A stretch of 14,593 nt of DNA, from the NCBI GenBank assembly GCA_030691295.1, contig JAUYEQ010000622.1:1-14593 (forward strand), written 5' to 3'. This document shows positions 546 to 12,483 of the stretch, piece by piece (within the stretch, counting starts at the first letter, position 1; each line of letters opens with the position of its first letter). The translations under genes were made by a program, and so were the position numbers. Source of the DNA: Bacteroidota bacterium. Lineage in GTDB: Bacteria > Bacteroidota > Bacteroidia > Bacteroidales > Prolixibacteraceae. The notes below the pieces were generated by a model. That model ran no database searches. It was not told where the DNA came from and saw only the letters and a list, made by a program, of their open reading frames with translations.

Positions 546-3191
546 TTAACACACCGGCATCGTAAAATAAAACGCACTTCCTTTGCCTTCGTTGCTATCT
601 ACCCATATTTTTCCACCCATTAACTCAACCAGTTTTTTTGTAATGGCTAAGCCAAGTCCATTTCCTCCGTATTTGCGGTTTTTTTCATCTTCCACCTGCC
701 TGAAACGGTCAAATATTTTATCGTGATATTCTGGCGGAATGCCGATGCCGGTATCTTTAACGAAAAATTCCACCATTTTGCCTTTGTGTTGATATCCAAT
801 TTCGATTTTGCCTTCCGGTGTGAATTTAAAGGCATTGCCAATCAGATTGTTAAATATTTGCATAAGCCTTTCGGCATCAGCTATAAATACTGTTTCTACA
901 TCATCGTCGGGCAGGTTTAGTTGCAGTTCGAGTTTGTAAGTTCCGGCCTGAAAATAAAATTGTTCATAAACGTCTGAAATATATTTCTGAGCATTGAGGT
1001 GTTTCTTTCGAATGGTAATTTCACCTGATTCCATCTTTGAAATATCCATTATGTCGCTGATAATTGATAAAAGGTTATTTCCACTGGAGATGATGTGCTG
1101 AATAAATTCATTTTTCTGATCCTCTTCAAAATCCGGATCGGTAAGCAATTCAGAAAACCCGATAATGCTGTTTAACGGTGTGCGGACTTCGTGCGACATA
1201 AAGGCCAGAAAAGCCGATTTTAAACGGTCGCTTTCCTGGGCTTTTTCTTTGGCTATAATTAGTTCATTTTCTTCAAGTTTTCGTTGAGTAATATCGTTTG
1301 AAATTCCTATAATTCCTGCTAATTCCTCTTTTGAATTGAAAAATGGGGCATCGGTTACCATGGAAGTAAAGCTACTGCCGTCTTTTCTTTTAACCAAAAA
1401 TTCTCCGGTCCACGAGTTGCCACAACTTAATTCTTTCATGATCTCTAAGGCTTGCTCCCGGGTTGATTGAGTCGGTGTTAAACTTATAATATTTTGTCCA
1501 ATTGCTTCTGCCGAAGACCACCCGTATATCTTTTCAGCCGCATTGTTCCAATAAATTATATTGCCATGTAAATCAGTAGCGATAACTGCCTGACCAACAT
1601 TGTTTAACAAGTTGGCCTGCAATTTTAATTCATTCTGAATTTTCTTAGGCTCTGTGATATCCCGAATGATTATACTGGATTGTCGAAGACCCAGGTGATT
1701 TTTGAAAATAGCCATTGAAATTTCAGCAGAAAATTGTGTTCTGTCTTTCCTGAGAAATGTTACTTCACCCCGTGCCTTTCCTTTTGAATTCCGTTCGTTC
1801 AGCAAAATAGAGAACCTGGAGTCAGAACCATCAACGACAGCTGATTTGCCCAAACGGATAAGTTCATCTTCCGAATATCCAAACATATCACATGATGCCT
1901 GGTTGGCTGATAGTATTTGTCCATCAGGACTTGTTAAAAGTATTGCATCCATGCTGTTTTCAAAAAATGCCCGGTATTTTATTTCGCTTTCAAGCATTGC
2001 ATCTTCAGCTTTCTTCCGCTCCGTAATGTCCTCAACCATTCCTATAATTTCCTGTGGCAAACCATTATTATCGTTTAGTGTTGTGACAAAAAGATTGGCC
2101 CAGATCAAAGTACCATCCTTATGGATGTACCTTTTTTCCATGCTATAACCGGATATTTTTCCAGCTATCAGATCAGCGAACTGATTCAAATCCTTGTCAA
2201 CATCTTCCGTATAAGTAAATTCAGTAAACTTCATTTTAGCCAATTCATCACTGCTGTAACCAATCATTTTTGTCAAACGTAAATTTGATATGATTGGAAA
2301 GCCTTGTAAATCAATCAGTGCAATCGCAATTGGCGCCTGGTCAAAAATGGCCCGAAAACGTTTTTCACTGGCCTGAAGTACTTGCCCTGCAAGCTTCCGT
2401 TCGGTAATGTCACGCCCAATACCCAGAATGCCAAGCACTGTTCCGTCTGAATCGTAGATCGGGGCTTTTATGGTTTCCAGAAAGGCGCGATGTTCATCGT
2501 CGGCAAAGGTAACCCACTCTTCGTTGATGGTAGGTTTACCTGCATCCACGGCTTTTTTGTCATTTCCGCGGAAAAAGTCGGCCAATTCCCGGTCAACAAA
2601 GTCATAATTGGTTTTACCAACGATGTCAGCTTCCCTGGCTCCGAAAAATCGTTCGAACATTGGATTGCAAGAGAGGTATATCCCATTCGTGTCTTTTAGC
2701 CAAATTAAGTCGGGGATAGTTTTCACAAGTGTGCGTAGGTGAGATTCACTTTTTTGCAGTGCCAACTCCGATCGTTTTCGAACGGTTGTTTCCCGTATGT
2801 TGCACTGAATTACCTTTTTTTTGTCTTCAAAATAGCAATTGCTGATGAACTCAACACTGATTTTCCGTCCATCAGCCGTTTCAAGCGGCAGGTCGTCATA
2901 ACGCACATATTCCTTCTGCTGTAATTCCGAAAATTTATCAAGATTAGCAACGATATCTTTTAAAAAACCAATTTCCCATATTGCTTTATCCAGAAATTGA
3001 TCTTCAGAATAGCCCAGCATTTCAATCAAAAATGGGTTCACATCTGTAATCATACCGGTTTCGGCATCGAGAATCAAAATACCGTCTTTGGCCGATTCAA
3101 AAAGTCTTCGGTAGCGGTTTTCTGATGCTTTCAGTAATTGTTCTGCCTTTTGCCGAAAATCAGCATTTTCTGATTTGTTATATTTTCCCAT
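546..3191 (-). CDS. Soluble multi-PAS sensor histidine kinase (HK1)
   Basis: This 881-residue kinase has no membrane segment or signal peptide and should sense signals in the cytoplasm. Five PAS domains follow one another at about residues 24-139, 148-266, 275-395, 402-516 and 524-638. Several end in the DITERK-type linker typical of PAS/PAC units. The dimerisation/phosphoacceptor helix has FMSHEVRTPLNSIIGFSELL with His667. The ATPase domain shows the N box (NNLIGNAFKF, 781-790), G1 box DTGIGIP (813-819) and G2 box GNGLGLAITKKLVELMGG (843-860), all intact. It ends with the standard GSAFYFTMP strand, and there is no receiver domain, so it is not a hybrid kinase. It autophosphorylates on His and must pass phosphate to a separate regulator. 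The PAS ligands are not recognisable. It lies 179 bp downstream of kinase HK2 and is followed by the stem-loop run, so it probably ends a transcript. Confidence 0.93.
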   Translation of the reverse strand: MGKYNKSENADFRQKAEQLLKASENRYRRLFESAKDGILILDAETGMITDVNPFLIEMLGYSEDQFLDKAIWEIGFLKDIVANLDKFSELQQKEYVRYDDLPLETADGRKISVEFISNCYFEDKKKVIQCNIRETTVRKRSELALQKSESHLRTLVKTIPDLIWLKDTNGIYLSCNPMFERFFGAREADIVGKTNYDFVDRELADFFRGNDKKAVDAGKPTINEEWVTFADDEHRAFLETIKAPIYDSDGTVLGILGIGRDITERKLAGQVLQASEKRFRAIFDQAPIAIALIDLQGFPIISNLRLTKMIGYSSDELAKMKFTEFTYTEDVDKDLNQFADLIAGKISGYSMEKRYIHKDGTLIWANLFVTTLNDNNGLPQEIIGMVEDITERKKAEDAMLESEIKYRAFFENSMDAILLTSPDGQILSANQASCDMFGYSEDELIRLGKSAVVDGSDSRFSILLNERNSKGKARGEVTFLRKDRTQFSAEISMAIFKNHLGLRQSSIIIRDITEPKKIQNELKLQANLLNNVGQAVIATDLHGNIIYWNNAAEKIYGWSSAEAIGQNIISLTPTQSTREQALEIMKELSCGNSWTGEFLVKRKDGSSFTSMVTDAPFFNSKEELAGIIGISNDITQRKLEENELIIAKEKAQESDRLKSAFLAFMSHEVRTPLNSIIGFSELLTDPDFEEDQKNEFIQHIISSGNNLLSIISDIMDISKMESGEITIRKKHLNAQKYISDVYEQFYFQAGTYKLELQLNLPDDDVETVFIADAERLMQIFNNLIGNAFKFTPEGKIEIGYQHKGKMVEFFVKDTGIGIPPEYHDKIFDRFRQVEDEKNRKYGGNGLGLAITKKLVELMGGKIWVDSNEGKGSAFYFTMPVC

Positions 3192-3370
3192 TGGTGATTA
3201 TTTTACGAGCATATTACCACTCGTCCATTGATAAATTCTGAATGTGGCAAGTTATGCAAGCGCAAAACCTAAAGTGTTATATAACTTTGGAAAAGAGTTG
3301 CAAGATTCACAGATATCGCAGAATTCTGATTAGATACAGCGATAAGAATCACAATAAATGGTTTTTGAAG
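3192..3370. other. Intergenic region between the two PAS kinases, with an imperfect inverted repeat
   Basis: These 179 bp presumably contain the promoter of HK1. The one structure I see is an inverted repeat at 3268-3290, CC(T)AAAGT / ACTTTGG around an 8-nt AT-rich loop. Its arms resemble those of the hairpin just after HK1 (502-542). No convincing TTTG/TAnnTTTG Bacteroidota promoter and no small gene could be supported. Confidence 0.4.
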
Positions 3371-5374
3371 TTACCAATGACTTGGAAAAGTAAAATAAAA
3401 TGTGCTGCCTTTGCCTTCGCAGCTTTCTACCCAAATTTTACCGCCGTGTTTTTCAACAAATTCTTTGCAAAGCAGCAGTCCCAATCCGGTGCTGGGTTCG
3501 CCTTCGGTTCCTTTTCTGTTGGCATTGGTATCAATCCTGAACAGGTTGTCAACCATCTCCCTGCTCATTCCAATACCTGTATCCTGAATGGCTATTACGA
3601 TGTTTTTATCGCTGGATGACTTGACCGACAGACTTATGCGTCCACCTTTGTTTGTGTATTTTATGGCATTTGAAACAAGGTTCCTGATAATCGTTTGAAG
3701 CATGTTGCTATCGGCAAAAACCACCAGGCCATCAGGAATTTCAGTTGTTATTTTAATTTTCTTATTTTTAGCTTGTTCCTGAATCATTTCGATAATTTCA
3801 CCTGTCACTAAACCAATTTGAATTTCTTCAGGATTAAATGGGATGGTACCTTTTTGTATCTGTGACCAATTCAACAGGTTTTCGAGCAACCGGTATAGGT
3901 TCGTCGCCGATTTGTTCATCCCCGCTATCATTTCCTGTAACTGCGGCATCGTCAGGTTGGGCAAATCCTCGGACATTATCTCGGTAAGTCCTAAAAAACT
4001 GTTGAATGGGCTGCGAAGGTCGTGGGCAATGATGGAGAAAAACTTGTCTTTGGTTGCATTCAGATTAATAAGTTCCTCATTTTTAAGTTGAATTTCTGCT
4101 TCGTTCTGCATTTGTTTGGTAATATCAACGATTAGTCCATGCCACAAAATATCTCCGCTTTCCAATTGCTGGGGCAACGATGTGATGTGTAGCCACCTGA
4201 CTTCTCCCTTCACAATAACACGCCCTTTCCAGTCGAATGGTCGTTTTAAATATATCCCTTCCTGATTTAATGTGGCAAAACCATCCAAATCATCGGGGTG
4301 AATTGCTTTGAAGATGGTTTCTTTATCTGTAAGCAGACTCTCAACACTCAAATCGAGCATTTCTGCCATTCTCGGACTGACATATTCAAGGGCAAAAGTA
4401 CCCTCAGGTTTGGTTTTCAGGATATAAACACCAACAGGAATTTTTGAAACCAAGTTGTCTTTCTTCTGCTTGCTGTTGAGTATTGCGTCTTCCGCCTGTT
4501 TGCGTGAACTTATATTTCTGGCCAAACCGGTTGCGCCTATAATTTCATTGTTTTCATTGAAGATTGGATTAAAAAAACTCTCATAATGGGCCAGTTCAAT
4601 ATCGCCGTATATCCTTATATTCGAATGAGTTTCGCCCTTCAGTGCGCGGTCGTAATTCTCTTTTGCCGCTTTTCGGTCTGCTCCGGAAGTAATACAATCC
4701 AGAATATTCATTCCCAATGAAATATCCGTATTGTATGCAAATTTCATGGCATCCGAATGGGCTTTGTTGAAATACAAATATTTGTATTCCTGATCAATGG
4801 AGAAAAGTATGGTGTTTCTCTGGCTCTCTATGCTGGACTTCAGCAGTAACTGCGATTTCTTAAGTGCTTCCTCTGCCTGTTTGCGTTCGGTGAGATCAAT
4901 ATCGATGCAAAACAATTCCTGAGGATGACCCGGAATACTGATGAGGGTATGGCTGGAAAACACTGACACGCGGGAGCCATCTTTACGCATCAGCGACAAT
5001 TCAGAAGAGGGGATAGGTTGCCCCGTTTCGGCCATATTTTTCATCGCATGTGCAACATCTTCCCGCATTTCAGACGGAATAATCAGATCCAGAAGGTTTT
5101 GGCCTATTGCTTCCTGTGCAGTATAACCATATAGCTGTTCGGAGGCCAGGTTCCAGTATTTGGTAGTCCCATCTGTGCCATACCCCTGAACTGAAACCGA
5201 TTGGACTTCCTGGAACAAATTTCTGAACCGTGCTTCGCTCTCGCGTAAGGCGTCCACTGATTGTTTGCGATCGGTGATATCCTTTCCGTATGATTTTCTG
5301 AACTTATTATTGTCCTCCCGTAATTGCTGCAACTCTTTTATGAGTTCTGATTTGGTTTTGTCCTGATCGTTCAT
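3371..5374 (-). CDS. Soluble multi-PAS sensor histidine kinase (HK2)
   Basis: This 667-residue cytoplasmic kinase begins with a short charged coiled-coil-like helix (residues 1-45, with a KDITDRKQ linker that looks like the remnant of a PAS end). Three PAS domains follow at about 45-166, 176-292 and 302-420. The third carries the IHPDDLDGF and WKGRVIVKGEVRWL pattern of the PAS_3 type. The HisKA helix has FFSIIAHDLRSPFNSFLGL with His451. The ATPase domain has an N box (RNLVSNAIKYT, 564-574), DTGIGMS (598-604) and STGLGLLLCKEFVEKHGG (628-645). No receiver or membrane segment is present. It is a different HisKA subtype (HDLRSP) from HK1 (HEVRTP), so the two are not a recent duplication. The start lies 27 bp after the stop of the nagB-like gene on the same strand, which suggests co-transcription with the sugar operon and possibly sensing of its products. 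That link is inference. Confidence 0.93.
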   Translation of the reverse strand: MNDQDKTKSELIKELQQLREDNNKFRKSYGKDITDRKQSVDALRESEARFRNLFQEVQSVSVQGYGTDGTTKYWNLASEQLYGYTAQEAIGQNLLDLIIPSEMREDVAHAMKNMAETGQPIPSSELSLMRKDGSRVSVFSSHTLISIPGHPQELFCIDIDLTERKQAEEALKKSQLLLKSSIESQRNTILFSIDQEYKYLYFNKAHSDAMKFAYNTDISLGMNILDCITSGADRKAAKENYDRALKGETHSNIRIYGDIELAHYESFFNPIFNENNEIIGATGLARNISSRKQAEDAILNSKQKKDNLVSKIPVGVYILKTKPEGTFALEYVSPRMAEMLDLSVESLLTDKETIFKAIHPDDLDGFATLNQEGIYLKRPFDWKGRVIVKGEVRWLHITSLPQQLESGDILWHGLIVDITKQMQNEAEIQLKNEELINLNATKDKFFSIIAHDLRSPFNSFLGLTEIMSEDLPNLTMPQLQEMIAGMNKSATNLYRLLENLLNWSQIQKGTIPFNPEEIQIGLVTGEIIEMIQEQAKNKKIKITTEIPDGLVVFADSNMLQTIIRNLVSNAIKYTNKGGRISLSVKSSSDKNIVIAIQDTGIGMSREMVDNLFRIDTNANRKGTEGEPSTGLGLLLCKEFVEKHGGKIWVESCEGKGSTFYFTFPSHW

Positions 5375-5401: not shown

Positions 5402-6127
5402 TTAAATCAATGATGCGGCTGCCTGATCTAAAAATAACGTGACATTTGGATGTTCGCGTAATATGCTTGCCGGACATACTGGTGAAATTTCACTGTTCAG
5501 GGTCTGGTAAACAGCTTTTGCTTTCCGCAGATCTGGAACACTGCAAATAATCGATTTCGATTTCATAATCTGATTGATGGACATGCTGATGGCTTGTTTC
5601 GGTACATCTTCGAAAGTGGGAAACCACCCTTCGCCCAATTGCTGTTGGCGGCATGCATCATCGAGATTGACCACCAAATAAGCATCTTCTGTTTCGAAAT
5701 CAGCAGGCGGATCGTTAAATGCCAAATGTCCGTTTTCGCCTATACCGGCAAAAGCCACGTCGATTGGATGGTGGAGAATAATATGCTCTAACCGTTTACA
5801 TTCCACCACCGGATCATCTTCTCCGTTTACATAGTGAAATGCTTTCAGACCCACCAGATTAACAAAGCGTTCTTTCAGGTATTTGCGGAACGATGCCGGA
5901 TGTGAATCAGACAGGCCAATGTATTCGTCGAGATGAAAAGCGGTCACTTTCGACCAGTCAACATCCTCTCTGACCAATGCATTCAGCATTTCGAACTGTG
6001 AGGCGCCGGTAGCGACAATAATGTTGGCCGTTCCATTGTCGGCAATGGCTTTCCTGATTAGCTCTGCTCCAGTGATAGCGGCTTTTCTGCCAAGTTGCTC
6101 TTTCGTTTCTAAGATTATTGTTTCCAT
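5402..6127 (-). CDS. NagB-like glucosamine-6-phosphate deaminase/isomerase family protein with altered catalytic Asp
   Basis: This 241-residue cytosolic protein of the NagB/6-phosphogluconolactonase (glucosamine_iso) fold has about the usual family length. Characterised NagB converts glucosamine-6-phosphate to fructose-6-phosphate plus ammonia. The family phosphate-binding loop is [15 protein letters not shown] (residues 37-51). The HLDEYIGL segment carries the active-site Asp67, and the signature [14 protein letters not shown] spans 128-141. Against E. coli NagB (D141, H143, E148), His134 is kept, E148 is replaced by Asp139 and the catalytic D141 by Asn132. The codon is AAC, so this is not a reading error on my part. 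The same GENGH variant is, to my knowledge, found in a NagB-like paralogue group of Bacteroidota and Planctomycetes of uncertain activity. It follows the Nramp-like gene by 11 bp and belongs to the operon with the NagA-like gene, so an amino-sugar substrate is likely, but deaminase activity should not be assumed. Confidence 0.85.
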
Positions 6128-6138
6128 GTTCGTTTCAT

Positions 6139-7380
6139 TTATAAAAAGCCGGCAATGGCGAAATACGAAGTTATAAAACTAAAAAGTATTACGGCTATCA
6201 GGCTGAAATTCATTTTTGTTCCGGCAGTTTGTTGGTTCATTAACGATTTTCGGTTAATCAGAATCATAATCGGGATGGCTACTGCCGGGAGTATCAGTGC
6301 CTGAAAAGCCTGCGAAAAAATCATCAGGAGTGGTGGTGTCGTGCTTATAAACTGCATACCGAAACCGAAGAGGATGCCAATTAGTCCCAGTATCCGGTAC
6401 ATAGGCGATTTGATATTTCTTTCTTTTCCGGTGTAGTCGCTGATCAGCCAGGGGGCAATCAAAACTATCGGAAAAACTGTTGAAATCCCGGCACCCACAA
6501 TTCCCAATATCAGGATAAAAGCAGCTACTTTGCCGCCGATGGGTTCAAACAGACTGATCATCTCAATAGTAGTGTTAAGTTTCAGCCCCATTACATGCAA
6601 CGTTCCTGCAGATACAGCCATGATTACCAAACTAAGAAAAAACATCATGGAAGCCGAAACCGCGGCATCCCTTTTTTCTTCTTTCAGGTGATTAATGTTC
6701 CAGCCTTTTTCGGCAACAACAGTACTCCGCATGATAAATACTGCCGCAGAGCAGGTCGTTCCGGCCATTGCAGCTATTAACTGAAGCGAGCCGGGAGTCT
6801 TGGGAATGCTGGGAACAAGTCCGCCCAACAGTTCTGAAATACTTGGTTTCACCATAATGAACACAGTAATAAAAGAAATTCCCATCAGAATGACCAGAAA
6901 AACTAGCACTTTTTCGAATGATTTGTAACGACCAAACCACAACAATGCATACAACGCAACAACCAAAACAATGGTGATATTCAAGGTGCTAAATCCTTCA
7001 CCACCCCACAAAATCAGCGAGGCTTCCCGAATCAGGTCGGAGACAATTCCGAAGATACCCATTAGAGCCAGTAATTCACCCACAACCAAAGCAATTAAAA
7101 TATAGATGGCCAGTACTTTACCATATTTGAAATTGGTTTTGATATTGAAAAGGGCAGTCTTACCGGTTACCAGTGTGGTTTTTCCATAAGCAACCATTAA
7201 AACGTAGGTGAAAATACACGAAAGAACCAGTGCCCATGTTAAGGTCATGCCATGTTCGGCGCCACTTTTTGCCATTGTTGTAACGCTTCCCGTACCAATG
7301 TTGTAACCGATCAGAAATAAGCCCGGACCAATGGCAGTCAGGCCAAGAAATATTTTCCGGAGAAGTTTGTTTTCGCTCAT
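6139..7380 (-). CDS. Divergent Nramp-fold membrane transporter lacking the metal-binding motifs
   Basis: This 413-residue, very hydrophobic protein has about 11 predicted membrane helices and the layout of the Nramp (SLC11/MntH) family within the LeuT-fold superfamily. The start [35 protein letters not shown] matches Nramp helix 1 in position, but the invariant metal-binding DPGN is replaced by IGTG (about residues 28-31). The helix-6 segment [27 protein letters not shown] (201-227) aligns with the Nramp GTTVMPHN..LHSSLV region, but the metal-ligand Met and the Pro-His are replaced by Ser-Ala-Ala. Both sites that bind Mn2+/Fe2+ in characterised family members are therefore absent. It sits between the NagA-like and NagB-like genes with 11-bp gaps on each side. 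A role as importer of an amino sugar or related organic solute is my inference. Automated pipelines would probably call it a divalent metal transporter. Confidence 0.82.
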
Positions 7381-7391
7381 ACCTGCCGTTG

Positions 7392-8609
7392 TTATTTTTC
7401 GTAAACCACTTTCCCGCCAAGGATGGTTTTTTGAATCACCATTTTCCCATTTTCGATCGTAAACAAAATCATATCAGCACGTTTGCCCGGACTGATTTCT
7501 CCACGATCATTCAGTTGAAGAATTTTTGCCGGGTTGGTGCTGGCCATTTGAATGGCATCGCCCAGGCTGCATCCGGTAAATTTCATGATGTTTGAAATGC
7601 CTGTGTTTATTGGAGCTGCAGCGCCTGCCAGAACATTTTCAGCCGGAAATTTTACTACATCAGGTGTCAGCAGCACCGTTCTTTCCCATCGCGTGTATTC
7701 TCCGGGTTCGAGCCCGGCCAAATCGAGTGCATCCGAAACCAAAATAGTCCGGTCGATTCCTTTGGCCTTGTAAAAAGTCCGTACTTCCTGTTTATTCAGG
7801 TGAAAGCCGTCGGCAATGATGGTTACCGAAAGCCGATCTTCTGACAGTTGCGGCCAGATCGGATTGTTGTGCCGGTCGATCATATTGGCGCAGCCATTGC
7901 CTAAATGTGTTGAAAGTGTTGCTCCGGCGTCAACTGCCTTTTCAATCTGTTCCGCATTTCCGTTGTGATGCCCCAGCGAAACGATTACTCCCTCGCGGCT
8001 GCAATTCTGAATAAAAGGAACTGCTCCATCGATTTCGGGCGCAACGGTAATCAGTTTTATCTTATTTTTTGCAGCTAGCTGTAATTCAGCGAATTCGTTC
8101 CATTCAGGTTTCCGGATGTATTTTTCGAGATGTGCCCCACGAAAACCTTTTTCAGGCGAAATAAAGGGGCCTTCCAGATGAAAACCGGGAATTGAAGGGC
8201 CAATTTCCGCATCGGCCAATGCATGTGAAAGGATTGAAAAGCTATTTTTCAGGCTTTTCCGGTCGGCGGTGATTAAAGTTGGCAGATAGGTTGTTACTCC
8301 TTCTTTCCACAATGCGCGGGTTGCTTTCCTGATTCCTTCCAGGGTCAAATCCTGATCAGCAAAATCAACGCCCATGTAACCGTTGATCTGAATGTCGATT
8401 AATCCGGGGGCAACATACATTTGAGGGGTTTTTGCATTGCTTTTCAGTGCGGTTACTTTACTTATTTTGTCTCCTGAAATTTTTACAGAAACTGGCTTTC
8501 CATTGCTATAAAGCAGTGCATCAATAGTATTGGTGTTTTTGTCTTCCGCAACTCCGGAAAATACAACCAGCAAAACCAAACCCGACAGAACCATCTTTTT
8601 TGCTCGCAT
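7392..8609 (-). CDS. nagA: N-acetylglucosamine-6-phosphate deacetylase (NagA)-like amidohydrolase with an apparent signal peptide
   Basis: This 405-residue protein belongs to the COG1820 amidohydrolases. It shows VAPGLIDIQINGYMGVDF (66-83), HLEGPF (144-149, metal-ligand Glu146), SLGHHNGN (His214), THLGNGC (His235), IADGFHL (265-271) and LVSDALDLAG with catalytic-type Asp293. The full metal-site and catalytic set looks intact. Classical NagA removes the acetyl group from GlcNAc-6-phosphate in the cytosol. Here the first 22 residues (MRAKKMVLSGLVLLVVFSGVA|ED) form a positively charged, hydrophobic, small-residue-ended segment placed before the usual N-terminal beta domain, which begins near residue 28. 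This looks like a Sec signal peptide, so the enzyme may act in the periplasm, where a phosphorylated substrate is unlikely. The THLGNGC...RHNNPIW wording also differs from the classical THLFNAM. It starts 4 bp after the oxidoreductase gene and 11 bp before the transporter, so operon membership is firm. Confidence 0.88.
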   Translation of the reverse strand: MRAKKMVLSGLVLLVVFSGVAEDKNTNTIDALLYSNGKPVSVKISGDKISKVTALKSNAKTPQMYVAPGLIDIQINGYMGVDFADQDLTLEGIRKATRALWKEGVTTYLPTLITADRKSLKNSFSILSHALADAEIGPSIPGFHLEGPFISPEKGFRGAHLEKYIRKPEWNEFAELQLAAKNKIKLITVAPEIDGAVPFIQNCSREGVIVSLGHHNGNAEQIEKAVDAGATLSTHLGNGCANMIDRHNNPIWPQLSEDRLSVTIIADGFHLNKQEVRTFYKAKGIDRTILVSDALDLAGLEPGEYTRWERTVLLTPDVVKFPAENVLAGAAAPINTGISNIMKFTGCSLGDAIQMASTNPAKILQLNDRGEISPGKRADMILFTIENGKMVIQKTILGGKVVYEK

Positions 8610-8613
8610 TTTC

Positions 8614-9957
8614 TTAGAGTTTTATTTCCCAACCTTTTTCGTAAGTGCGCGACCAGTATTTTTCTGCCTCCTGATCAGCAACAATATGGCCGGTTTTGGG
8701 ATCAATATTTAACGACCGGCCCACACGTTGCGAGATATTTCCCAGTTGAACCAGCAAGGTGCTTTTGTGTCCGGAGTCAACGTCCGAATTAAGTTTGCTG
8801 CCATTTTTAATTCCGTCAAACATATTTTGAATATGAATGGCATCGAGCTGTTCAGCCGGGTTGGAAAGGTTTCTTGAATCAATCTTCTGGTCATCTTTCA
8901 CTTCCTTTACCACTTTGTTTTGCAAGTCGAAAATGGTGTAGCTGTTTCCGGCCGGAATAAGCAGACTTCCTTTTTCTCCGTAAAACATCACTCCCACAGA
9001 GCTGCCTTCAATGTATTTTCCGTTGCAGCTCCGTCCTTCCCACGACATCGCCAGTCCTCTGTCAAATTCGAGGTTGATTACCTGCGTGTCGGGGGTTTCC
9101 CAGTCGTCCTGATACCTGTACCTGCCACCGTTTGAACTGACTTTTACAGGAAAGTCAACATCCATTCCCCAGCGGAGAAGGTCGATCATATGGGTTCCGT
9201 TGTTCAGGGCTTCGCCGGTTCCCCAATGCCAGAACCAGTGCCAGTTATAGTGAATCAGGTTGTCTTTGAATTCTTTCCGGGGAGCTGGCCCCTGCCATAA
9301 ATCCCAATTCAGCCATTCCGGAACCGGTACAATTTTTCCTATGCCAATCGGACCACGATTATTGGTGTACCATCCTTTTCCAAAATAGACATTTCCGATT
9401 GCCCCGTTTTTTAGTTCCTGAATAGCGTTTGCCACATTGGGCCACGAGCGGCGCTGGTTGCCCATTTGAACAATCTTATTATACCGGATTGCCGCCTCCA
9501 CCAGCATTTCGCCTTCGCGGGGGTTGTGGCTGCATGGTTTTTCAACATAAACATGTTTGCCAGCCTGCATGGCCAGTACAGATGCCGGAGCATGCCAATG
9601 GTCGGGAGCGGCAATCACGAGAGCATCAATATCTTTGCTTTCAAGCGACTGCCGGAAATCAACAAAGCCTTTGGGCACCATTGTTTGCCGATCTTTAATT
9701 GCTTTTGTGCAATTCACAATTGCCCTTGAGTCAACATCGCAAATATGAGCCACTTCGCAATTTTCCTGAAGTGCGAAATTCCTTGCCAATGCCTGTCCCC
9801 GAGAGTTAACGCCCATTATCGACACCACTATTCTATTGTTCGCGCCAACGATCCGGCCATAACTTTTCGAACTTAATCCCGGAAGAATTCCACCAACAGA
9901 TAATGCGGCAGTTCCAAGCGTAGCATTCCGGATAAAATTTCTTCTTGAATTTTTCAT
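8614..9957 (-). CDS. Tat-exported Gfo/Idh/MocA family oxidoreductase, 447 aa
   Basis: The N-terminus MKNSRRNFIRNATLGTAALSVGGIL is a twin-arginine signal (SRRNFI) followed by a hydrophobic stretch, so a folded, cofactor-loaded enzyme should be exported. The Rossmann domain follows, with IVVSIMGVNSRGQA near 43-56 and CDVDSR near 73. The EKP motif at 139-141 (HVYVEKPCSHNP) is the family hallmark with the catalytic-type Lys. QMGNQRRSWPNV (164-175) and HWFWHWGTGEALNNGTHMIDLLRWG (239-263, with His256 as the likely active-site His) characterise the large exported subgroup common in Bacteroidota and Planctomycetes. Members use NAD(P) to oxidise a sugar-type hydroxyl. In the exported GH109 relatives, a tightly bound NAD takes part in glycoside cleavage. 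The substrate here is unknown. It is the first gene after the 304-bp repeat-filled gap and heads the tight run into the NagA-like, transporter and NagB-like genes. Confidence 0.88.
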   Translation of the reverse strand: MKNSRRNFIRNATLGTAALSVGGILPGLSSKSYGRIVGANNRIVVSIMGVNSRGQALARNFALQENCEVAHICDVDSRAIVNCTKAIKDRQTMVPKGFVDFRQSLESKDIDALVIAAPDHWHAPASVLAMQAGKHVYVEKPCSHNPREGEMLVEAAIRYNKIVQMGNQRRSWPNVANAIQELKNGAIGNVYFGKGWYTNNRGPIGIGKIVPVPEWLNWDLWQGPAPRKEFKDNLIHYNWHWFWHWGTGEALNNGTHMIDLLRWGMDVDFPVKVSSNGGRYRYQDDWETPDTQVINLEFDRGLAMSWEGRSCNGKYIEGSSVGVMFYGEKGSLLIPAGNSYTIFDLQNKVVKEVKDDQKIDSRNLSNPAEQLDAIHIQNMFDGIKNGSKLNSDVDSGHKSTLLVQLGNISQRVGRSLNIDPKTGHIVADQEAEKYWSRTYEKGWEIKL

Positions 9958-10261
9958 ATTGTTCAGGTTTATTAGGTACTACAAAATTTCTAAATTAATG
10001 ATTTCAGTTGATCAGTTATCAAATGTTTTTTTGAAATCCTGAAGGGATTTAATATCAATAGCCCCGGATGGAATCCGGGGTAAAATAATGATAAAGAACA
10101 ACAACCCTGCAAAGGGTTGAATATCAAATTCGAACAAATTCAACCCTTTGCAGGGTTTCAAAACCTATCTTTCCCGTACCCCTGAGTTTCACTCAGGGGT
10201 ATTCATATTCAACCACGTTGTGGTTATTTTGTCTTACACCAATTTTATTAGGTTTTTTCTT
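9958..10261. other. 304-bp intergenic region: leader of the downstream operon plus palindromic repeat cluster
   Basis: No gene is visible. The part next to the downstream start (9958-10030) is AT-rich and should hold the promoter and leader of the oxidoreductase-nagA-transporter-nagB operon. I found only a weak AAATTTTG-like match to the Bacteroidota -7 element and do not call it. The rest, 10034-10225, is a set of stem-loops listed separately. Confidence 0.6.
10034..10225. repeat. Two-fold symmetric cluster of palindromic elements
   Basis: Five local stem-loops lie in 192 bp: 10034-10039/10045-10050 (AAATCC/GGATTT), 10062-10069/10073-10080 (CCCCGGAT/ATCCGGGG), the large pair 10103-10122/10138-10157 (20 bp, perfect, 15-nt spacer), 10178-10187/10191-10200 (ACCCCTGAGT/ACTCAGGGGT) and 10211-10216/10220-10225 (AACCAC/GTGGTT). 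A linker close to TTGAATATCAA or its complement joins them. On the plus strand the unit is hairpin, TAATATCAATA, then CCCC..GGGG hairpin. The same unit reads on the minus strand at 10225-10178 with GAATATGAATA as linker. Between these two opposed units sit a hairpin-plus-linker half unit and its exact inverted copy. The style resembles dispersed REP-like intergenic elements of Bacteroidota. No transposase is adjacent. Confidence 0.85.
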
Positions 10262-11302
10262 TTAAAACGTCAGTTTTGCAACCTTTTTTGCGGCTTTTTC
10301 CATCACTGCTTTTATTTTAACCGCTTTTCCACCTTTGGCTTTGCTAAGGTCGGCAGCTTCCATAAAAGCAAGGATTTCCAGCGTTTCTTCTTCCTTTACA
10401 GGTGCTATGCCTGTTTTAAAGAATTGTATGATCTGAACCAGCAATGGGTTGTACCCGGCATAACTGCCCAGCACTTTGATGCCTTTTTCGCCAAATACGG
10501 TTCCTCCGTAATCTTCTTTTCCTTTCCTGATGCCGCGGAATGCTCCAATCCTGCCATCTTCCCACGTTCCGGTGACCAAATCTGTATCCGCATTTGAAAC
10601 CCTGACGACACTTTTGCAGCCGGTTCCCATTGCTGTAAACAGCGTTTCAACACCGTGTATTCCATACCAAAACAGATCGGGATGAGTCTTTTCAAGTTTT
10701 GCCGGACTGTAAGTTTCTGCACCGAGTACTTTTCCAATTTTTCCTGAAATCACCTCGTCCATACCGGTAATATACCTAAGCGACGAACTTGAAAAAACCG
10801 GGACTTTGTATTTTTTTGATGCTTCGAAAATGGCAATTGCGTCGGCCAGTGATGCAGCCATCGGTTTGTCGATAAACATTCGTTTACCGGCTTTCAAAAC
10901 TGGCAAAGCCTGTTCCAGATGCAACCGTCCGTCATTGGTTTCCAAAAGAACCATATCAACTTTGGTGAGCAAAAGGTCGATGGAATCGACAATTTCGACA
11001 CTGTACTTTTGAATTTCAGTAATGTAGCCGGGAATTCTGGATACGCTGCTCTCAATATCGTTGCTGCCCTTTGGATAGGCCGCAACTACTTTAAACCCGG
11101 CAAACTCCGCGCCTGCTTCCGGATTGTTGAGCGATTTGGTAAATGCAATGCTGTGCGAAGTATCCAGTCCGATGATGCCAATCCGGTTGCCTGCATTATT
11201 GCTCAAAAAGTTGTTTGATTTGAGAACTGAGCCGGTCAGACTCAATCCTATTCCCGACAAAGTCGTCGTCAGTATAAATTCCCTGCGTCCGGTCTTCTTC
11301 AT
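10262..11302 (-). CDS. Tat-exported Gfo/Idh/MocA family oxidoreductase, 346 aa
   Basis: The N-terminus MKKTGRREFILTTTLSGIGLSLTG is a twin-arginine signal (GRREFI), so the protein should be exported folded. After it comes the Rossmann strand RIGIIGLDTSHSIAFTKSLN (40-59). Here the usual GxGxxG loop is replaced by GLDTSH, a variant I associate with a poorly characterised branch of the family. The EKP hallmark appears as FIDKPMA (143-149) with Lys146. A single GIHGVET segment (214-220) sits where the family's C-terminal domain normally carries its active-site His. At 346 residues it is about 100 shorter than the other oxidoreductase in the locus and shares little beyond the fold, so the two are not tandem duplicates. 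It begins 20 bp after the GH172-like gene, suggesting co-transcription with it. The stem-loop cluster follows directly after its stop. The substrate is unknown, presumably a sugar or sugar derivative. Confidence 0.85.
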   Translation of the reverse strand: MKKTGRREFILTTTLSGIGLSLTGSVLKSNNFLSNNAGNRIGIIGLDTSHSIAFTKSLNNPEAGAEFAGFKVVAAYPKGSNDIESSVSRIPGYITEIQKYSVEIVDSIDLLLTKVDMVLLETNDGRLHLEQALPVLKAGKRMFIDKPMAASLADAIAIFEASKKYKVPVFSSSSLRYITGMDEVISGKIGKVLGAETYSPAKLEKTHPDLFWYGIHGVETLFTAMGTGCKSVVRVSNADTDLVTGTWEDGRIGAFRGIRKGKEDYGGTVFGEKGIKVLGSYAGYNPLLVQIIQFFKTGIAPVKEEETLEILAFMEAADLSKAKGGKAVKIKAVMEKAAKKVAKLTF

Positions 11303-11322: not shown

Positions 11323-12483
11323 CTAATTTACTTCAAGTCCCTGCCAGTTTAGCATTTTAGGAAATTTTCCGTGCGGGTCGGTCTGGTACCAGAAACAGAC
11401 GGATGAAATATCAGATTGCTGTGCAAGATATCTGCCGCCCTGTCTCCATCCCAAATCCTGAATAGTAATCTTCAGATCTTTTTCGAAGCGCACCGGATCC
11501 ATAATGTGCCAGCGGTAAAGTCCAAATCGCTGCTGCGATTTATAGGCACCGTCGGGGCGGATAACCTGATGGAGTCCTGCATAAGGAGTGCAAAATTCTT
11601 TGTATTGACCATCCCTGTCAAAATTGTAAGAACCGCAGAAATAATCTTCGGTACCGGTTCCGCAAATGGTCGGAAACTTGCCATCGCCGTCGATGAAGAA
11701 CTTGATTTCCCCTTCGCCCCACCAGCCATTGTTGTTGACTCCCCAGGCCATGTAAACCCCCACAAACTGACCTTTCCCTTTGATGTTGTCAACAATCGTA
11801 TAATCCGAAGTTGTGTTGGTGTTCAGCCGTCTGAATTGCGCATGGAAATAGGCAGCATCGGCCGGAACGTCGGTTAAAGTGTAGTCAATCTGGTAGTACA
11901 AAGTCATTTGGTCTTTGTCGTTTATATTTTCCATAGTGATTTTGCATTTTTTGTGGAAAGGCATCATCCAGTAGCAATTAAAAGCGCTTCCCGGATTTAC
12001 ACAAACGGCCAGAGAGTTGAGCGGCGCGTATTGGTTCCATCCCATTCCGAAGAAATCGCCCACCGGACATTCGACTGATGGTTCGGTTTCATCGTCCCAA
12101 TAAATGCGAAGGATGGAGAACCGCCAATTTCCGGTTGGAGTCATCCAGATATGCTGGATAGCGCCCGGACCTTCAATTTCGGCAAGTGTAAAGGTTTCGC
12201 CCGGATTGATCCGCACGTATGGATTCACTTTCCAGCCTTGACCAAGATCACGGGCTGCATTCGTGGCGTTTGCCGTGTTTGGGGCAGCTTTGTCGTCAGG
12301 AGTCGCCATGCCGCCTTTGCCCTTTTCACCTGTAAAATTTTCAGGACTAATGGAACGGGTTTTTGCATCTGATAACCGATACAGGTTGCCCATATTCATG
12401 TCAAGGCCATTGAATCCCTTTTGTGAAAATCCGTCGATTTTAAGTAGACAGATTAATGCTAAAAAAAGAAGTGAATTTTTCAT
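11323..12483 (-). CDS. Secreted DUF2961 / GH172-type glycoside hydrolase
   Basis: This 386-residue protein has a signal peptide (MKNSLLFLALICLLKIDGFSQ) with cleavage likely near residue 20. It therefore acts in the periplasm or outside the cell. Recognisable family segments are GPGAIQHIWMT (105-115), LRIYWDDETEPSVECPVGDFFG (125-146), the GEGEIKFFIDGDGKFPTICGTGTEDYF stretch (256-282) and YRWHIMDPVRFEKDLKITIQDLGW (323-346). DUF2961 was reclassified as GH172 after members were shown to act on alpha-D-fructofuranosides and D-arabinofuranosides. The Glu residues at 257/259 and 279 are spaced about as I recall for the two catalytic glutamates, so the active site looks intact. The exact furanoside cannot be read from the sequence. 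It starts 30 bp after the response regulator stop and is followed 20 bp later by an exported oxidoreductase. The leader motif AATAAACCT lies 7 bp before the ATG. Confidence 0.88.
   Translation of the reverse strand: MKNSLLFLALICLLKIDGFSQKGFNGLDMNMGNLYRLSDAKTRSISPENFTGEKGKGGMATPDDKAAPNTANATNAARDLGQGWKVNPYVRINPGETFTLAEIEGPGAIQHIWMTPTGNWRFSILRIYWDDETEPSVECPVGDFFGMGWNQYAPLNSLAVCVNPGSAFNCYWMMPFHKKCKITMENINDKDQMTLYYQIDYTLTDVPADAAYFHAQFRRLNTNTTSDYTIVDNIKGKGQFVGVYMAWGVNNNGWWGEGEIKFFIDGDGKFPTICGTGTEDYFCGSYNFDRDGQYKEFCTPYAGLHQVIRPDGAYKSQQRFGLYRWHIMDPVRFEKDLKITIQDLGWRQGGRYLAQQSDISSVCFWYQTDPHGKFPKMLNWQGLEVN

Follow-up and report, generated by a model that had tools for sequence, protein, structure and literature searches.

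What does a transporter of the Nramp fold carry when its gene lies between two genes of the amino-sugar type and other residues stand at its metal-binding positions? The question arises from a stretch of DNA of 14,593 nucleotides (the window), in which the gene of an Nramp-related protein, here called the carrier, is separated by 11 bp from a nagB-like gene (ending at 6127, with the carrier from 6139) and by another 11 bp from a nagA-like gene (the carrier to 7380, nagA-like from 7392). The five genes from 5402 to 11302 are all on the minus strand (Table 1). The original prediction for this locus had noted both gaps, which we confirmed, and had proposed that the transporter moved from metal ions to an organic solute. 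The reading that we favor, with a probability of roughly 0.6, is that the carrier is an inner-membrane, Nramp-related secondary carrier of an organic, sugar-type solute, which in its own (nag-type) branch is most likely an amino sugar or a derivative of one. This importer reading draws on the predicted fold, the missing metal ligands, the clade and the conserved neighbors; the cargo, the direction of transport, the compartments of the enzymes and the coupling ion are what we infer from them.

Table 1. Features of the window, with the basis of each assignment.
Feature	Position	Strand	Basis or remark
Nramp-related transporter (carrier), 413 aa	6139..7380	minus	ATG start; "GTGS clade", nag-type branch (names coined here)
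TM1 break, residues 29-32 G-T-G-S replacing metal-binding D-P-G-N	7285..7296	minus	alignment to E. coli MntH and model break; coordinates computed from the ORF
TM6 break, residues 211-213 S-A-A replacing M-P-H	6742..6750	minus	alignment to E. coli MntH and model break; coordinates computed from the ORF
Arg218, column of E. coli MntH His216	6727..6729	minus	invariant in 49/49 GTGS rows; coordinates computed from the ORF
NagB-like protein, altered active site	5402..6127	minus	PF01182 62 bits; under the NCBIfam nagB cut-offs
NagA-like deacetylase, putative N-terminal export signal	7392..8609	minus	TIGR00221 253 bits, above the cut-off of 225.65; catalytic residues kept
Gfo/Idh/MocA oxidoreductase (GfoA), N-terminal twin-arginine stretch SRRNFI	8614..9957	minus	PF19051/PF01408; nearest solved chains 8tdf/8tdh dehydrogenases
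Second Gfo/Idh/MocA-type protein, twin-arginine N-terminus GRREFI	10262..11302	minus	PF01408
DUF2961 protein, possibly part of the operon	11323..12483	minus	PF11175 330 bits

The carrier matched the Pfam Nramp profile (PF01566) with 183.8 bits against a cut-off of 29.8, and the match ran from residue 33 to 386 and over positions 1 to 355 of the 357 in the profile, so that it belongs to the family along the whole domain. Two sequence relatives were found in the PDB at E ≤ 1, EleNRMT (7qia, 5.3e-19) and a chain of 10ky (4.8e-9), which is the Nramp of Bacteroides fragilis. The predicted model of the carrier (pLDDT 89.7) has the Nramp fold, its best Foldseek match being EleNRMT 7qia with a TM score of 0.84, and it shows a LeuT-type arrangement with TM1 broken at 28-29 and TM6 at 210-211. 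No added domain was detected in a Pfam search. The profile score and the predicted fold bear out the original prediction of Nramp likeness along the length of the protein. A chance resemblance is ruled out by the profile score, the fold and the clade described below, and a pseudogene is ruled out as well, since neither the ORF in the window nor two relatives of 97-98% identity contain a stop or a break of frame.

Statements on the pocket in what follows are based on the alignment and on the limits of the helices. In the alignment to E. coli MntH, D34-P35-G36-N37 correspond to G29-T30-G31-S32 of the carrier, and M209-P210-H211 correspond to S211-A212-A213, so that the canonical SLC11/Nramp signature (DPGN in TM1, MPH in TM6) gives way to GTGS and SAA. 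The absence of DPGN and the Ser-Ala-Ala in TM6 had been predicted correctly, but the TM1 motif is GTGS at residues 29-32, from which the predicted IGTG is shifted by one residue. G29, T30, G31 and S32 are kept in all 49 non-redundant rows of what we call the GTGS clade, at identities down to 35%. In each of these rows, Gly stands for D34 and Ser for N37, and none of the 49 has Asp, Asn, Met or His at the canonical ligand columns in the alignment to MntH. The column of the TM3 glutamate (E112 in E. coli) is a gap in 49/49 rows. Residue 102 nearby, however, is Glu in 37/49 and Gln in 10/49 rows (47/49 together), which means that TM3 as a whole is not free of acids; this residue could join ion coupling or binding. 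Positions invariant across the 49 rows are G29, T30, S32, T208, T209, R218, W227, D238, S300 and D315, among which R218 stands where MntH has H216. The 29 nag-type rows are set apart from the other GTGS rows at C210 (28/29) and S211 (29/29), among other positions. One row outside the 49 (L089), in which the N-terminus is cut, reads GTDS.

The nearest relatives of solved structure, the Mg2+ transporters of the EleNRMT/NRMT type, have the Pfam family and the fold in common with the carrier and, like it, carry GTT in TM6 and lack a Met in the site. They differ in that NRMT rows keep an Asp in TM1 (DAGG) as well as the TM3 Glu and adjoin MgtE-CBS genes, whereas the carrier has GTGS/SAA and adjoins nagA-like and nagB-like genes. 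The NRMT signature, given as DxxG in TM1 with TxxA/T in TM6 in the available text of PMC8806188, does not describe the carrier, whose TM1 has no Asp. A class with GPGT/VPY, which we call PxpT-like from its neighbors, branches separately; its rows have His or Gly where the carrier has Arg218, and Asn in the column of the TM3 Glu. From canonical Nramp/MntH proteins (DraNramp, BfraNramp, E. coli MntH) the carrier differs at the four TM1/TM6 ligand columns and at the columns of the TM3 glutamate and of H216.

These residues bear on an alternative that we consider unlikely, namely that the carrier is a divalent-metal importer with a non-canonical site, supplying a metal cofactor to the NagA-like amidohydrolase or to sugar enzymes generally. 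The absence of Asp, Asn, Met and His from the ligand columns of 49 rows, and of any acid from the TM3 glutamate column, argues against it, particularly as the NRMT rows keep both the Asp and the Glu. On the other side stand the Nramp fold and family themselves, the Glu or Gln retained at position 102, and YcsG, a relative of PxpT in B. subtilis, which the accessible portion of PMC10448178 reports to be a Mn2+ importer that raises cellular Mn; missing DPGN and MPH motifs alone do not, therefore, exclude a metal. Nramp-related proteins with varied residues at DPGN and MPH are known, as far as can be seen from parts of PMC12873925 and PMC8806188 and from the outgroups of PMC10606218 and PMC9606685.

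From the fetched loci we gathered 132 Nramp-type proteins with distinct cores, which fall into five classes by their TM1/TM6 motifs: GTGS with a variable TM6 triplet, which includes the carrier of the window; GPGT/VPY, with pxpABC neighbors; GPGS, with VLN, VLH or ALA in TM6; DAGG/APW, as in EleNRMT; and the canonical DPGN/MPH. A first, unrooted tree was built from 71 rows of at least 380 residues and with pairwise identities below 78%. In this tree each motif class occupied one side of a branch, the 49 GTGS rows formed one branch with a support of 100/100, and the 29 nag-type rows, defined here by at least 55% identity to the window carrier, formed another within it, also at 100/100. A second tree, likewise unrooted, left out the TM1 and TM6 regions and included E. 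coli MntH; the GTGS branch held at 100/99 and the nag-type branch at 100/100. In both trees the carrier was in a different branch from the DAGG (NRMT) rows, and it was also apart from the GPGT rows, which make up a separate 12-row branch; the name PxpT-like for that branch refers to its pxpABC neighbors, as the sequences of PxpT and YcsG were not among the rows of the trees. The order of the classes is unsure because several branches are long (L069, L071, L031, L077 and E. coli MntH) and long-branch joins between classes were flagged. The original prediction described the carrier as having lost the metal motifs. Our trees are unrooted, however, and in the available text of PMC12873925, a 2026 preprint, a rooted family tree places Nramp-related proteins as paraphyletic to the canonical Nramps, so that the metal site of the canonical Nramps may instead be a later invention. 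Organic cargo remains the best reading of the carrier; the loss is one of two possible histories of the site.

A scan of genome contigs gave 73 loci, in which the best segments were 57-98% identical to the carrier, and many of which have the order gfoA-gfoB-nagA-nramp-nagB, in whole or in part. Neighbors of the nagA and/or nagB type were found in records labeled Bacteroidota, KSB1, Neomarinimicrobiota (where nagA comes after nramp) and Planctomycetota. In 71 nag-type loci, the window included, the gene directly upstream is nagA-like in 44/67 and the gene directly downstream is nagB-like in 36/70; the family of GfoA (cluster 3) is present on the same strand in 37/71 and that of the second Gfo protein (cluster 4) in 28/71, while the DUF2961 family (cluster 36) is present in 3/71, all close kin of the window. 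Because GTGS is kept in 49/49 rows down to 35% identity and the gene order recurs in other phyla, neither the motif nor the gene order can be put down to chance.

We then counted neighbors on the same strand within five genes, dropping loci with identical cores (residues 61-300) and taking as nag-type those at 400 bits and above. Among 76 nag-type loci, 52 have a nagA-like gene, 51 a nagB-like gene, 40 both, 45 a Gfo gene and 67 any sugar gene. The prediction that such proteins would form a clade with nagA/nagB-like neighbors was thus upheld, with proteins of the GTGS/SA[AV] pattern in one branch (100/100) and mostly beside such genes. Some nag-type loci lack both a nagA-like and a nagB-like gene. 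Nine have no counted sugar gene; eight of these contain at most ten genes, and L130, with 17 genes, is the clear exception. No pxp genes were counted near nag-type genes within the same limits. Of the 26 loci of other GTGS branches, 24 have any sugar gene, 4 a nagB-like gene and none a nagA-like gene; a glycoside hydrolase, a lyase or a BNR gene is present in 16/26, and a kinase, an aldolase, an isomerase or an SDR gene in 18/26. These loci variously contain GH2, GH20, GH84, GH88, GH28, BNR-repeat and fucosidase genes, genes of PL7-type alginate lyase, chondroitinase B/PL6-type and heparinase II/III-type lyases, and genes of a kinase-like/6PGD fusion, PfkB kinase, KDPG aldolase and SDR proteins. 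The frequency of glycan and sugar genes in loci devoid of NagA-like genes (24/26 against 0/26) speaks against a metal importer that serves the NagA-like enzyme. Two of these loci are without a counted sugar gene on that strand: L173, which encodes the most divergent GTGS row (L071), and L170, where a sulfatase gene is present.

Sugar genes were found near none of ten GPGT loci (pxp genes, that is 5-oxoprolinase and pxpABC, near six), one of three GPGS loci (a Gfo gene), none of four NRMT loci (MgtE-CBS near all four, and CorA also in L181) and none of six canonical loci, in one of which (L191) the DPGN gene is two genes from feoB. The list of sugar clusters was compiled after the GTGS loci had been viewed and was drawn from their neighbors, which makes the zeros of these controls softer than they look. 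We annotated the control neighbors in part, covering 20 genes of five NRMT and canonical loci and two more. Around the canonical genes these were YebC, DEAD helicase, integrase, histidine kinase, thioredoxin-like, FeoB, TonB-type and PurK-type genes, and around the NRMT genes they were MgtE-CBS, CorA, efflux genes, GARS, amidase, an OprB-type porin and a polysaccharide deacetylase on the other strand. Among all these, the porin (L183) and the deacetylase (L181, on the opposite strand) are linked to carbohydrates. The location of NRMT-type genes beside Mg2+ genes suggests that the neighborhood reports the cargo in the Nramp family; still, gene context by itself names no cargo.

In ordinary nag operons the amino-sugar transport step is taken by NagE, NagP and other permeases, which belong to families unrelated to Nramp (PTS, MFS); here a protein of the Nramp fold occupies that position. 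We nonetheless rejected an ordinary nagAB operon with a swapped permease, on the putative signal of the one enzyme and the altered residues of the other. The textbook NagA is a cytoplasmic enzyme and a metalloenzyme. A simple hydropathy rule that scanned 40 N-terminal residues detected a hydrophobic N-terminal segment in 50/54 NagA-like proteins of the loci, in several of them followed by a lipoprotein-like Cys, whereas by the same rule 1/57 NagB-like proteins was positive and E. coli NagA was negative. Of the four NagA-like proteins that were missed (L086, L111, L112, L155), L086 and L112 have no true N-terminus and the segment of L111 lies beyond 40 residues. If NagA-like is exported as predicted, metal import into the cytoplasm would not serve it directly, which weighs further against the metal importer. 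The NagA-like protein of the window satisfies the curated NagA profile (Table 1), and the catalytic residues E131, H195, H216 and D273, as well as R227 and H251, are kept in 54/54 NagA-like proteins. The NagB-like protein scored 138.1 bits with TIGR00502, under the cut-off of 236.9; D72, H143 and K208 are kept in its family, while Asn, Asp and Gln stand at E. coli D141, E148 and R172 in 56/57 rows, the remaining row being gapped. These altered residues suggest that the substrate of the NagB-like subfamily is probably other than plain GlcN-6-P. The original prediction of an amino-sugar operon therefore stands as far as the nagA/nagB-like neighbors go, and fails insofar as it implied an ordinary nagAB pair. 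Elsewhere in the genome of the window we found no second protein that exceeds the NagA cut-off, and a single PF01182 protein with a better score.

The two enzymes also differ in what they say of phosphate. R227 and H251 of NagA-like, presumably the contacts of the 6-phosphate, are kept, but R172, which we take to be part of the phosphate-binding site of NagB, is lost from NagB-like. On these residues the cargo may be phosphorylated, sulfated or neutral. No sugar kinase was recognized in the window operon by Pfam, and a PFK-like cluster adjoins 4/71 nag-type loci. A twin-arginine motif near the N-terminus was found in 48/62 and 29/33 proteins of two Gfo clusters. GfoA as a plain GH109 enzyme was rejected, since it matched dehydrogenase chains with 106.7 bits and two GH109-type chains with 34.6 and 22.5 bits.

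A pathway consistent with these observations can be proposed. Exported Gfo/Idh oxidoreductases and the NagA-like deacetylase, assigned to the periplasm from their N-terminal signals, would process an N-acetylated amino-sugar compound there. The GTGS carrier would then move the deacetylated product over the inner membrane by rocking-bundle alternating access, as the modeled fold would permit, through a putative site made of the unwound segments of TM1 (GTGS) and TM6 (the GTT that precedes SAA), perhaps together with Arg218. In the cytoplasm, the NagB-like enzyme would deaminate or isomerize the imported product. Given the putative export signal in 50 of the 54 NagA-like proteins, a plausible role of the carrier is to connect deacetylation in the periplasm with a NagB-like enzyme in the cytoplasm.

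Arg218 and the other GTGS loci raise a further possibility, that the carrier imports an organic solute other than a plain amino sugar, for example acetate or some other acid that the deacetylase releases, or a uronate-like or sulfated anion that would match the invariant arginine. Several GTGS branches are found in loci for uronates and alginate, which yield acids, a sulfatase cluster (PF00884) adjoins 3/74 nag-type loci, and PxpT offers a precedent with an anionic cargo (available text of PMC13274462). The arginine, invariant in 49/49 rows of the clade, is shared by the nag-type branch, which has no uronate enzymes adjoining, so that the residue may be structural or gating, and nothing was observed that links acetate to the other GTGS loci. 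We regard such a cargo as rather improbable. One of the other GTGS carriers (L169, G163) lies in an apparent alginate locus with a PL7-type lyase, a heparinase II/III-type lyase, a chondroitinase B/PL6-type cluster and a kinase-like/6PGD fusion.

Two large multi-PAS histidine kinases are encoded at 546-5374, directly downstream of the nagB-like gene. Their position is what could suggest that the carrier is no longer a transporter and has become a sensor or an accessory subunit of the sugar operon, an idea that we find scarcely credible: the kinase family (cluster 17) is present in only 2/71 nag-type loci, the model retains the complete transporter fold with its two helix breaks, and there is no added domain.

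We also looked at the distribution of Nramp genes in whole genomes. A match in the GTGS range (at least 237 bits to the window carrier) was found in 21/395 genomes of a phylum sample, its own genome included. A canonical-scoring Nramp, called by score (PF01566 of at least 345 bits) rather than by motif, is present in 147/395 genomes of the sample but in 0/21 GTGS genomes (P about 4e-5, with kinship ignored), and none was found in 29 GTGS genomes scanned in full, where the best score was 333.5 bits. Within the genus, where canonical genes score in this range, 18/20 other genomes have one, compared with 0/3 nag-type genomes; the two others without it are 66% and 76% complete. The carrier is the only PF01566 match found in its genome, which is 93% complete. 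Such scarcity is the pattern expected if GTGS proteins had replaced the canonical Nramps as metal importers. The argument is weakened because genomes with other non-canonical Nramp-related classes have a canonical-scoring gene in only 3/37 cases, because kinship is uncorrected, and because the three nag-type members of the genus are near-identical in the carrier gene (97-98%). The lack of co-occurrence therefore resembles a pattern of lineages; even so, no other point speaks as strongly for the metal importer. The genome of the window has its own FeoB and a ZIP-family protein, which counts against that alternative. FeoB is present in 21/23 genomes of the genus and was not found in G007, a nag-type genome, and in G001. 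Canonical-scoring and non-canonical genes of the Nramp family seldom occur together in genomes of the phylum sample.

The sugar-type reading of the carrier has a precedent within its family. Corynebacterium glutamicum needs PxpT to grow on 5-oxoproline, and the nearest relatives of PxpT are in the NRAMP family, the authors leaving metal transport possible (available text of PMC13274462). Organic cargo has thus been proposed before in the fold family, contrary to the original prediction. The sugar link may be new: no report of an Nramp branch tied to sugar catabolism was found among the matches listed from the open-access literature, the words sugar and organic are absent from the available portion of PMC10606218, as are carbohydrate, organic and amino sugar from that of PMC9606685. 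The new element here, as far as the search reached, is the conserved, sugar-linked branch of Nramp-related proteins. Whether the whole GTGS clade consists of Nramp-fold carbohydrate importers, for amino sugars, uronates and glycan breakdown products across glycan-degrading bacteria, is in our judgment an even bet; they would be, as far as we searched, the first sugar transporters related to SLC11, with an invariant TM6 arginine at the place of the histidine of the metal carriers.

Source labels on these proteins, among the matches listed, are "Mn2+/Fe2+ NRAMP family transporter", "manganese transport protein" and "Nramp family divalent metal transporter". Of 7999 candidates scored, 2448 proteins matched at E ≤ 0.001, other classes included, and the best 120 of these 2448 have at least 78% identity. 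If our reading is correct, such metal-transporter labels mislead for a large set of proteins, an inner-membrane importer has been identified for several kinds of glycan loci, and one fold has switched between inorganic and organic cargo, which bears on the origin of the metal site of Nramp.

Some loci held further Nramp-family genes of other classes. A sixth motif class, GSGE/GGD, is represented by a single gene (L189, G030:C20, ORF near 8100-9500), which adjoins glucuronate isomerase UxaC, a PfkB-kinase cluster and a KDPG-aldolase cluster. In two loci (L125, 3197-5764, and L150, 5884-9706), a nag-type GTGS gene lies near a gene of the GPGS class on the same strand. The GPGS genes of L043, L045 and L046 are followed by a common trio, which encodes a 345-aa protein without a Pfam match, a DHDPS-like protein and a GNAT-like protein.
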